Assembly: GCA_021805735.1 (NCBI GenBank)
Contig: JAJZEE010000005.1
Span: 1-61,291 of the forward strand
Direction of reading: 5' to 3'
DNA length: 61,291 nucleotides
Origin: Bacillota bacterium
GTDB lineage: Bacteria > Bacillota > Bacilli > Alicyclobacillales > SLC66
Part shown: positions 7,145-55,011 of the stretch, piece by piece
Layout: every line of letters starts with the position of its first letter
How positions within the stretch are numbered: the stretch's first letter is position 1
Notes under the pieces: generated by a model
Seen by the model: only the letters and a program-made list of their open reading frames with translations
Database searches by the model: none
Told to the model about the DNA's origin: nothing
Program-made: the position numbers and the translations under genes

Positions 7145-7300
7145 GGATAGACTTCCATGCCTGAGTTTTGCGAAGCAAAATCTCACTTGCGCCACCAACA
7201 ACCGGGATGAAAAACCCGCTTGGCCGGAATCGTATGCTGTGCCGAGGCGAGTTCGGCGCAGCCGTGTTTGAGAAGCGGCGCAGCATACGGTTCTGGCGGG
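7145..7300 (+). repeat. Intergenic repeat element, copy 1, with long hairpin
   Basis: The element begins GATAGACTTCCATGCC, shows a small hairpin (GAGTTTTGC-GAA-GCAAAATCTC), then CACCAACAACCGGGATG and AAAAACCCGCT (7210-7220). A long imperfect hairpin follows: the arm at 7215-7243 (core CGTATGCTGTGCC) pairs with 7277-7300 (GGCGCAGCATACG). The loop carries GCGAGTT, a small CGGC-GCA-GCCG hairpin, and TGTTTGAG. The same leader recurs at 18243, the leader and hairpin layout at 37441, and a terminator version at 54947. Its function is unknown. Confidence 0.65.
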
Positions 7301-7385: not shown

Positions 7386-7715
7386 GTGGAGGCAGTCATC
7401 ATCGTGGAGGGCAAACATGACAGGGAGCGGTTGTTGCCCATGGTCAACGAGAACACCCGCATCTTCTGCACGTTTGGCATCCCGACTCACGGTTTATTGA
7501 TGCAACTCAGAGAGCAGACAAAAAACGCCCAAGTCTACATTTTTGCTGACAGCGACAAGGTCGGCAGGCGCATTCGCGCTATTCTTGGAGAGGAGTTTCC
7601 GGAAGCGATCCACTTGCATACAAAGGCAGAGTATCGGGGAGTGGAAGACACGCCTGTGGAGTACTTGCAGCAGGTGCTCTTAAAACAGGAATTGCTGAGG
7701 GCGGACTTTTTGTAG
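7386..7715 (+). CDS. Small TOPRIM-domain protein
   Basis: A 109-residue protein that is essentially one TOPRIM fold. The conserved glutamate is in VIIVEGKHDRERL (residues 4-16) and the DxD motif in FADSDKVGRR (about 59-68). Small stand-alone TOPRIM proteins resemble the catalytic part of RNase M5 and primases, so a nucleic-acid cutting or nicking role is likely but not specified. GTG 7386 has AGGAGA upstream. It follows repeat copy 1 and is separated by 169 bases from the acetyltransferase. Confidence 0.85.
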   Translation: MEAVIIVEGKHDRERLLPMVNENTRIFCTFGIPTHGLLMQLREQTKNAQVYIFADSDKVGRRIRAILGEEFPEAIHLHTKAEYRGVEDTPVEYLQQVLLKQELLRADFL

Positions 7716-18242: not shown

Positions 18243-18330
18243 TCCGGGATAGACTTTCATGCCGCTGCGCAGCACCAACAACCGGGAAGAAAATGCGCGT
18301 GCGGCGATTTTCCGGGAAAGGTGTGTTGGC
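18243..18330 (+). repeat. Intergenic repeat element, copy 2
   Basis: GATAGACTTTCATGCCGCT (18248-18266) and GCAGCACCAACAACCGGGAA match copy 1's leader almost base for base (GATAGACTT-CATGCC, then CACCAACAACCGGGA). Here the leader is followed by GAAAAT-GCGCGTGCGGCG-ATTTTCCGGG, which forms its own imperfect hairpin instead of the ACCCGCT arm. It lies directly after the stop of the AT-rich membrane gene, as a possible downstream element. Confidence 0.55.
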
Positions 18331-30639: not shown

Positions 30640-30674
30640 AACCGTTAAGCGGCGCGCCGCCCAATTTTATAGTA

Positions 30675-30795
30675 CACGCTCAATTCCGATTCTCGGAAGC
30701 GGGGGAACCAAGCAATTGGGGTGAATTCGGTGAACAACCGATAGGGGAACTCTCAACCCGAACCCGTCAGCTAACCTCGTCAGCGGAAAGAGGGG
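30675..30795 (+). ncRNA. c-di-AMP riboswitch aptamer (ydaO/yuaA type)
   Basis: The conserved blocks of the ydaO class appear in the right order: GGGGGAACC (30701-30709), TTGGGGTGAAT (30717-30727), a GATAGGGG segment (30740-30747), and the hallmark AACCCGTCAGCTAACCTCGT (30761-30780). CGCT (30677-30680) can pair with AGCG (30782-30785) to close the aptamer. This class binds cyclic di-AMP, normally switching genes for cell-wall remodelling, K+ or osmolyte handling off when c-di-AMP is high. Here it precedes an uncharacterised 161-aa protein. Confidence 0.95.
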
Positions 30796-30837
30796 TGAAC
30801 GGTTATGTCGATAACCTTCTCCGTCCAGTTCGCGCTT

Positions 30838-36637: not shown

Positions 36638-37387
36638 ATGGATACGAACCATCTACGAGTTGCGGTCGCTGGCATCCATGGTAAGATGGGACAAGAAGTC
36701 GCGCGGGCCGTAAACGGCGCAGCCGATCTGCTACTGGTTGGAGGAGTGGCCCGAGAGCAAACGGACGACCATGCAAGAATCAGTGAAGAGGCCGTGACCG
36801 TTCCGGTATACGACGATCTTCGCACCTGTCTGCTCACAGAAAAACCAGACGTTCTGGTTGATTTTACGCATGCGCAAGCGGCTCAACAGCACATCGCAGT
36901 CGCAGTAGAACTCGGCGTCAGACCCGTGATTGGCACCACGGGGTTTGCCGAAGACTTTCTCGAACAGACAGACGAACTCCTGAGGGCGCGGGAACTCGGG
37001 GGACTATACGCTCCGAACTTTGCCGTCGGCGCGCTCCTTATGATGCGCGCGGCCGCGATGGTCGCGCCACTGCTGCCGCAGGCAGAAATCATCGAGTACC
37101 ATCACGAACAGAAACGGGACAGGCCTTCAGGAACTGCAAAAAAGACCGCGCAGATGATTGCTTCGCAACTCCCGGAGGGAGTGAGCCGCGACATTCCCAT
37201 TCACAGTGTGAGATTGCCCGGATTTGTCGCTCATCAAGAAATCATATTTGGCGGTCAGGGTGAACGTCTGACCATTCGCCACGACTCAATGTCGCGCGTC
37301 AGTTTTATGCCAGGCGTCCTGCTGGGAATTCGCAAAGTGATGACCGTCACGGGTCTGGTCGACGGATTGGAACACTTTCTGTTCTAG
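36638..37387 (+). CDS. dapB: 4-hydroxy-tetrahydrodipicolinate reductase
   Basis: 249 residues. NAD(P)H-dependent step in lysine and diaminopimelate synthesis. N-terminal AVAGIHGKMGQEVARAV binds the cofactor; the active-site motif is EYHHEQKRDRPSGTAKKTA near residue 150 with the catalytic His pair; VDFTHAQAAQQH is also typical. Its ribosome-binding site (CAGGAGAGG) lies inside the ypjD stump. mgsA follows after repeat copy 3. Confidence 0.95.
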   Translation: MDTNHLRVAVAGIHGKMGQEVARAVNGAADLLLVGGVAREQTDDHARISEEAVTVPVYDDLRTCLLTEKPDVLVDFTHAQAAQQHIAVAVELGVRPVIGTTGFAEDFLEQTDELLRARELGGLYAPNFAVGALLMMRAAAMVAPLLPQAEIIEYHHEQKRDRPSGTAKKTAQMIASQLPEGVSRDIPIHSVRLPGFVAHQEIIFGGQGERLTIRHDSMSRVSFMPGVLLGIRKVMTVTGLVDGLEHFLF

Positions 37388-37419: not shown

Positions 37420-37560
37420 GTTGCATGAATAGCCGAGTCCATACGAATGAAAAACCCGCTCGCCAGGACGGATCATGCATTGCACTGCAGCGAGTTTTGC
37501 GGCCCTTTGGGCCGCACCTGTTCGAGCGGCAGTGCAATGCATGATCCGTCCTGGCATGGC
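37420..37560 (+). repeat. Intergenic repeat element, copy 3, with perfect 27-bp hairpin arms
   Basis: After GCATGAATAGCCGAGTCCAT comes GAATGAAAAACCCGCT (37445-37460), the shared leader end. Two 27-base arms (37462-37488 and 37529-37555) are perfect reverse complements; their cores are ATCATGCATTGCACTGC and its complement. The 40-base loop has GCGAGTTTT, an inner GCGGCCC-TTT-GGGCCGC hairpin, and TGTTCGAG. The loop boxes match copy 1 (GCGAGTT and TGTTTGAG) although the arms differ. It sits between dapB and mgsA. Confidence 0.75.
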
Positions 37561-37604
37561 AGGAACGACTATATTTACACTGTAGAGAGCGGGGAGAGAG
37601 ACGA

Positions 37605-38033
37605 ATGCGCATCGCGCTGGTGGCGCACGACAGAAAGAAAGATGACATGGTCAATTTTGCGATAGCCTATCAGGCGCTGTTCACTGGTCACGAATTATTT
37701 GCAACCGGCACAACAGGCGGTCGTATCGCAGAAGCGACCGGTTTGCCCATTCACCGTTTCCGCAGTGGACCACTGGGCGGCGACCAGCAAATCGGAGCGC
37801 TCATCGCGGAAAATCGCCTGGACTTGCTGATTTTTCTGCGCGATCCTCTGATGGCCCAACCGCACGAGCCAGATATCATCGCCCTGCTCAGATTGTGCGA
37901 CGTCCACGATGTTCCGGTAGCGACCAACATGGCTTCGGCGGAGATGCTGCTGCGCGGCATCTGGCGCGGCGACCTGGCCTGGCGCGAGATCGCGGCCGAA
38001 ACAGGAATAGAAACAGGGGAGCAAGCTGATTGA
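37605..38033 (+). CDS. mgsA: Methylglyoxal synthase
   Basis: 142 residues. Converts dihydroxyacetone phosphate to methylglyoxal and phosphate, a bypass of lower glycolysis. Motifs: [17 protein letters not shown], the phosphate-binding [27 protein letters not shown] with the catalytic Asp, and [15 protein letters not shown]. The dapB-mgsA-bshB1-bshA order is as in Bacillus. Confidence 0.96.
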
Positions 38034-54944: not shown

Positions 54945-55011
54945 GCCGCTTTGCAGCACCATCAGCAATATGAAAAACCCGCTGATTGCATTGCGGGTTT
55001 TTTCTTTTTAC
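54945..55011 (+). terminator. Intergenic repeat copy 4 ending in an intrinsic terminator
   Basis: GCATGCCGCTTTGCAGCACC (54946-54965) and ATATGAAAAACCCGCT match the leader of copies 1-2 (CATGCCGCT-GCGCAGCACCA; GATGAAAAACCCGCT). Here AAAAACCCGC (54973-54982) pairs with GCGGGTTTTT (54993-55002), followed by TTTTT runs, a perfect terminator for the FtsH-like gene. This shows the leader end can be one arm of a terminator. Confidence 0.85.

Follow-up and report, generated by a model that had tools for sequence, protein, structure and literature searches.

A dispersed chromosomal hairpin with a conserved loop on changing stems in a Bacillota genus and in Coriobacteriaceae and relatives

The window, the whole stretch of 61,291 nucleotides analysed here, comes from a Bacillota genome (contig JAJZEE010000005.1; genome G000 below) and carries two long hairpins. 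One of them, copy 3, lies between dapB and a gene with an MGS domain; the other, copy 1, lies upstream of a short open reading frame. The features of the two sites are as follows.

7146-7205, + strand: companion short-palindrome module adjoining copy 1
7223-7244, + strand: 5′ arm of copy 1 (type A), 22 pairs including 3 G.T (sequence reading)
7247-7253, + strand: box 1 of copy 1, GCGAGTT (pattern match)
7254-7264, + strand: inner hairpin of copy 1, CGGC-GCA-GCCG (sequence and fold)
7265-7272, + strand: box 2 of copy 1, TGTTTGAG (pattern match)
7276-7297, + strand: 3′ arm of copy 1 (sequence reading)
7386-7715, + strand: ORF of 109 aa downstream of copy 1, same strand, Toprim / RNase M5-like by eye
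18248-18312, + strand: companion modules without boxes, presumably copy 2 of the original prediction
36638-37387, + strand: dapB (DapB_N/DapB_C), upstream neighbour of copy 3, same strand (domain match)
37445-37459, + strand: 5′ foot of copy 3, GAATGAAAAACCCGC, common to other copies, bordering the stretch that differs between type B (G000) and type A (G002)
37462-37488, + strand: 5′ arm of copy 3 (type B), perfect 27-bp stem (arm complementarity)
37490-37496, + strand: box 1 of copy 3, GCGAGTT (pattern match)
37499-37515, + strand: inner hairpin of copy 3, GCGGCCC-TTT-GGGCCGC (sequence and fold)
37519-37526, + strand: box 2 of copy 3, TGTTCGAG (pattern match)
37529-37555, + strand: 3′ arm of copy 3 (arm complementarity)
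37605-38033, + strand: MGS-domain gene (methylglyoxal synthase-like), downstream neighbour of copy 3, same strand (domain match)

The 27-base arms of copy 3 had been predicted to pair perfectly, and they are complementary throughout. An inverted-repeat finder reported the hairpin as 30 nt at 97%, and the RNA fold of positions 37447-37570 reached −82.5 kcal/mol (z −11.0). Copy 1, as also predicted, forms a long stem of a different sequence; apart from the 3 G.T pairs the stem is Watson-Crick, and its RNA fold has a z score of −5.3. Both loops show the described order of GCGAGTT, an inner hairpin whose sequence differs between the copies, and TGTTYGAG. This pair of boxes is matched twice in the window; 100 dinucleotide shuffles gave a mean of 0.00 matches. 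The region around 18248-18312 has flanking modules in common with the box hairpins; no boxes were found in it, and the RNA fold of 18268-18312 was no more stable than those of its shuffles. The companion modules at 7146-7205 and 18248-18312 alternate with box hairpins and can replace them at one site (L013 versus L321). At window positions 54965-55010, the start of a companion module, CACCATCAGCAATATGAAAAACCCGC, leads directly into GCGGGTTTTTT, like a repeat turned intrinsic terminator.

Searching the window's genome with the pattern GCGAGTT-N5..30-TGTTYGAG gave 62 matches, compared to one for the reversed pattern used as control, and 61 of the 62 are long hairpins. Fifty-six of these 61 lie outside open reading frames, as called by a heuristic caller written for this analysis; the remaining five (L015, L040, L041, L047 and L057) lie inside a called frame, whose start, we think, was placed too early. 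Three main types have the loop in common: type A (loop CGGC GCA GCCG), which includes copy 1, type B (GCGGCC...GGCCGC), which includes copy 3, and type C, with a stem ending GTGCCCGTC / CAGGGGCAC. A variant box, GCGAGTA, was also found. Near-identical copies are present alongside the high copy number, and 2 of 179 copies are chimeras that join type A and type C arms. Left out before counting were L048, which has no hairpin fold, L010, which is cut by a contig end, three copies with weak register, five of unclear type and one cross-matched array row.

All three genomes of the genus have pattern matches, with 31 and 70 in the congeners, which are the MAGs DX2.bin20 (G001) and JA1.bin52 (G002). 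A covariance model, R1, matched 5 of 18 genomes of the window's family. Its match counts, such as 133 among the best 150 candidates in G000, are not copy numbers, since palindromes match on the other strand too. In a more distant genus of the family (G016), loci L061-L065 hold degenerate copies with a conserved flank of their own, which occurs on one side of the hairpin or the other. L060 (G000:C168) and L315 (G002:C93) have an identical stretch of 2103 bases in congeners that otherwise differ by about 5%; a recent transfer or a mis-binned contig may be the cause.

In the rest of the phylum the pattern occurs in 6 of 397 other genomes, which is about chance because the reversed control matches 3 genomes. 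A second model, R2, trained on both groups of copies described here, matched none of the 397 at E 1e-4, a weak result in that the best 12 candidates per genome were scored. Among the 129 matches listed in the pattern scan of named genomes, one clear hairpin fell outside the genus: L195, in the uncultured Coriobacteriaceae MAG RUG11733. After the title of this MAG the second group is called Coriobacteriaceae and relatives (Actinomycetota). R1 matched 22 of 61 genomes of the family of RUG11733; the boxes confirmed 16 of the 22 (G422 among them), leaving six without confirmation (G424, G425, G432, G435, G463 and G476). R2 matched 15 of 40 genomes of the order, and all 15 were confirmed by boxes. 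Both boxes were present in a long stem at 33 of the 50 loci of the first set and at 28 of the 30 loci of the second, which come from all 15 genomes. The box hairpin was absent from 17 first-set loci, 9 of them from genome G468 (two overlap). At the G468 loci (L339, L386-L394) most model matches are palindromes without boxes, either another hairpin class or false matches. In the viral contigs, one off-pattern stretch among the 120 listed passed a loose arm filter; it was judged not to be the element, and a viral origin was set aside for the matches listed.

The identical loop thus sits on unrelated stems in a second phylum. The boxes GCGAGTT and TGTTYGAG, predicted to be conserved in further copies, do recur, with the reservation that they are also the search seed and part of the models. 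Most copies within a Coriobacteriaceae genome have unrelated distal stems as well. Contrary to this rule of private stems, two copies in G467 (L353) have near-identical ones. These stems, at 1524 (−) and 2337 (+) of L353, are inverted relative to each other and, by eye, flank an nrdG-like gene downstream of nrdD.

Covariation at the stem positions is overwhelming. In a MAFFT alignment of the genus copies, which was not fitted to structure, both sides had changed in 22 of 26 pairs, and 89.1% of cells were paired versus 71.2% after shuffling. Cells changed on two sides numbered 149, compared to 43.8 in shuffled alignments and 10-22 with slid partners; for 35 sequences from both groups the figures were 257, 84.7 and 60-90. 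The helix covaries, and the unpaired residues that it surrounds are invariant. Conservation covers GC-GAGUU and UGUYYGA-GC, in which GA lies opposite GA and is flanked by G-C pairs, a geometry that suggests a tandem sheared G.A motif. Median stem length is 23 bp (range 19-40) for 43 distinct copies of the window's genome and 26 bp (19-44) for 67 copies of the second group, very short stems being excluded by the score threshold. Conservation falls off away from the loop: in the 14 copies of G474, the loop-proximal 11 bases of the 5′ arm are 73% alike and the 15 beyond them only 38%.

We take the covariation to prove that pairing is maintained, but not by what route. Copy exchange and template switching also generate covariation, so that by itself it does not prove selection acting on sequential mutations. 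With about 5% of stem sites changed, 1 to 2 double changes would be expected under independent change (our own arithmetic); whole-module exchange and template switching could produce the same excess. Template switching has been argued to be able to create and mend stems (Monttinen and Löytynoja, PMC8794818). The original prediction had read stems that change and still pair as the signature of structure-conserving selection. It is partly supported: that inference, taken by itself, goes too far, since whole stems are exchanged at orthologous sites, chimeras occur and one multi-base block is changed in both arms together, all of which copy exchange and template switching can bring about as well.

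These exchanges occur at fixed positions. The dapB-mgsA site is occupied by type B in the window's genome and by type A in G002, whose DNA is about 94% identical, and the flanks of the two genomes are nearly identical up to the hairpin. Among 37 pairs of G000 and G002 copies whose two flanks both match, 13 differ in type, some of them through cross-matching within arrays; these counts lack the pair L034/L223 (0 one-sided and 6 two-sided differences). When 38 copies of G002 were mapped into G000 sequence, 34 sites were occupied, which is no unbiased rate since the G000 sequence compared was chosen around known copies. Of the four sites scored as empty, three are taken up by another copy or a degenerate one and the fourth (L280/L406) by unrelated sequence that lacks the hairpin; no clean empty site was found among the 38. 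In the second group, L364 and L366 (flanks 93 and 95% identical) have entirely different paired stems between the same neighbours, with a sister hairpin conserved in the gap, and L382 and L397 differ by a multi-base block changed in both arms. Over 17 second-group pairs with both flanks matched, the stem was judged common in 4, partly so in 1 and different in 12, several of the 12 not being clean; some pairs involve two-hairpin gaps or flanks whose alignment begins some way from the hairpin. Orthology is clean for L364/L366 and L382/L397 in the second group, and in the genus for L030/L117, L309/L110 and L330/L112. A donor of the distal stem was sought for 72 second-group copies and appeared in 35, versus 34 of 72 in the control, at the loci examined; none stood above control.

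Differences within the stems are asymmetric. One-sided stem differences between orthologues in the genus comprise 21 changes to G.T, 6 to A.C and 4 others (p 0.006). The G.T:A.C ratio is 11:4 in one mutation class and 10:2 in the other, so the excess cannot be put down to C-to-T deamination alone. The asymmetry is weaker when distinct column states are counted in the genus (G.T 31, A.C 18). In 72 second-group copies the stems have 51 G.T and 27 A.C (p 0.009), bearing in mind that the covariance model used in the search itself favours G.U. The bias fits RNA and single-stranded DNA alike, since G.T is the best-tolerated mismatch in single-stranded DNA also.

Orientation was scored for 51 copies of the window's genome that lie outside open reading frames and have both neighbours called. 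Relative to the two neighbours, 33 copies are same/same, 8 same/anti, 5 anti/same and 5 anti/anti. Where both neighbours run against the gene majority over 20 kb, the element goes with the neighbours in all 5 copies (3 loci). It follows the majority against the upstream neighbour in 5 rows, or 3 after removing doubly seen copies (the overlapping stretches L414/L415 count two copies twice), and is opposite to both neighbours and majority in 2 rows; rows with one conflicting neighbour only are mixed. By this comparison, replication-strand bias is a less well supported cause than neighbour orientation. Orientation agrees between G000 and G002 in 29 of 29 sites with a pattern element at the mapped G002 site (30 rows). 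In the second group, orientation is unbiased (10 same/same, 11 anti/anti and 16 mixed; n = 37), and neighbouring copies less than 400 bp apart diverge in 12 of 12 pairs (about 9 independent), neither of which is predicted by a simple transcript element. That the strand bearing the boxes folds as a single strand draws support from the G.T excess over A.C and, in the window's genus, from orientation.

The genes next to the element are varied, with ribosomal protein L9, isopropylmalate/isocitrate dehydrogenase, SpoIIIAE and YqfD among them. Forty-two downstream genes on the same strand were listed; 24 of the 25 that were scanned fell into varied families, and with neighbours unrelated in function a common regulon was rejected.

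Taken together, we tentatively favour, with rather less than even confidence, a cis-acting hairpin, dispersed through the genome and active as a folded single strand, most probably RNA in the transcripts of neighbouring genes, that is read at the loop. The recognised part would be the apical internal loop 5′-GC-GAGUU-[inner hairpin]-UGUYYGA-GC-3′. Its G.A residues could stack as tandem sheared pairs flanked by G-C pairs, one side of the loop being U-rich. The sequence of the 20-30 bp stem would be free because the stem only needs to pair. In the genus, copies sit in arrays with companion palindromes and exchange with one another at fixed positions, the arms being re-matched through whole-module exchange and probably also through template switching. 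We infer that a protein or nuclease may read the loop and that the hairpin may affect mRNA processing or stability. A bolder claim, which we hold to be improbable, is that a single class of chromosomal hairpins spans both phyla, with an invariant loop as the recognised part and a stem that is created or exchanged at fixed positions by dedicated loop-reading machinery, most loci having a private near-perfect stem.

The main rival explanation, which we consider rather unlikely, is a folded single-stranded DNA site resembling attC or REP hairpins in its logic, at which a recombinase or transposase would read the loop and swap or insert hairpins at gene borders. The high copy number with near-identical copies, the type swaps at conserved positions, the two chimeras with arms of different types and the divergence of all 12 close pairs speak in its favour, and the strand asymmetry fits it too. 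The enzymes argue otherwise. Integron integrase (TIGR02249) scored over cut-off in none of 15 genomes, weaker tyrosine-recombinase matches being present in 15 of 15 and in 13 of 14 controls. Y1_Tnp genes occur in all three genus genomes; the five scanned match the IS200/IS605 model only, and the element lies near 1 of 12 Y1 loci in the genus, about chance by our own estimate. The REP-type or integron-type recombinase to which the original prediction had pointed was not recognised, and no RAYT was recognised among the five Y1 genes scanned. The lack of a clean empty site among the mapped G002 copies and of stem donors above control also counts against this explanation.

The block change mirrored in both arms of L382/L397 and the exchange of types in arrays would suit old palindromes without function of their own, kept perfect by template switching, which is reported to create and mend hairpins (PMC8794818), and by gene conversion, with the loop as the turn-round point. 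This is doubtful given that both boxes recur on unrelated stems in another phylum, and neither the strand asymmetry of the genus nor an orientation that follows the neighbours would be expected. Least probable of all, in our opinion, is a transcription terminator or border insulator that would stop polymerase entering a gene from outside. Among second-group copies with a clear distance, the loop core does come within 60 nt of the called gene for 18 of 29 on the 3′ side, versus 5 of 31 on the 5′ side (our own count), and paired copies of this group diverge. However, a run of 4 T within 10 nt of the 3′ foot is absent from all 43 copies of the window's genome and all 67 of the second group, and in the genus the element sits between co-directional genes such as dapB and mgsA, which commonly form one operon.

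On the preferred reading, a folded strand read at its loop, recognition (the loop) is separable from pairing (the stem). Selection on RNA structure is normally held to be proven by compensatory changes; here a stem can be replaced outright at a conserved site with the loop kept, which provides natural cases for setting template switching and module exchange against selection. Should the loop be read by a protein, the element would be a missed general element of mRNA processing or genome rearrangement, common to a Bacillota genus and Coriobacteriaceae.

A literature search found no description of the element, most subscription literature being outside reach. Compared with REP sequences, attC sites, terminators and Rfam families, it lacked a tested defining feature of each and was placed in no known family. 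It resembles the structured RNAs of Rfam in having a covarying stem around invariant loop residues. At gathering score, Rfam 15 matched in the window only a c-di-AMP riboswitch and a tRNA, both away from the elements, and the element was accordingly assigned to no known RNA family. The riboswitch (RF00379, 104 bits) lies at 30667-30799 on the + strand. Lowering the threshold to E up to 5 at five element loci gave eight matches, all far below gathering score; those on elements were to microRNA precursors (best E 5e-4) and one sRNA. Identity with an intrinsic terminator was rejected for want of a T-tract after the stem, which was found on the box strand in 0 of 43 copies of the window's genome and 0 of 67 of the second group (A-run 5′ of the foot: 1 of 43 and 0 of 67).

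The elements resemble REP, BIME and REPIN sequences, which likewise are short palindromes between genes, present in tens of copies and often in pairs or clusters. REP stems are given as 5-13 bp in one account of the GTAG class (PMC3733652) and as 8-9 bp in one of the CGTC class (PMC8266576), with a tag at one end, whereas here the median stems of 23 and 26 bp lie outside the 5-13 bp range, the conserved part is the loop and there is no consistent tag. Within 8 nt on the 5′ side of the foot, GTAG was present in 0 of 43 distinct copies of the window's genome and 3 of 67 of the second group, and CGTC in 0 and 1. Tags and stem length led us to reject a REP identity. An attC site is likewise a folded hairpin, recognised by structure and with little sequence conservation between sites according to PMC2727003. 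Identity with integron attC was rejected, no integron integrase having exceeded the cut-off in the 15 genomes. The attC core is GTTRRRY, whereas the boxes conserved here are apical and do not correspond to that core. ERIC, NEMIS and similar sequences are dispersed imperfect palindromes of about 100 nt between genes that have their stem sequence in common, whereas the stems described here differ between types and between sites.
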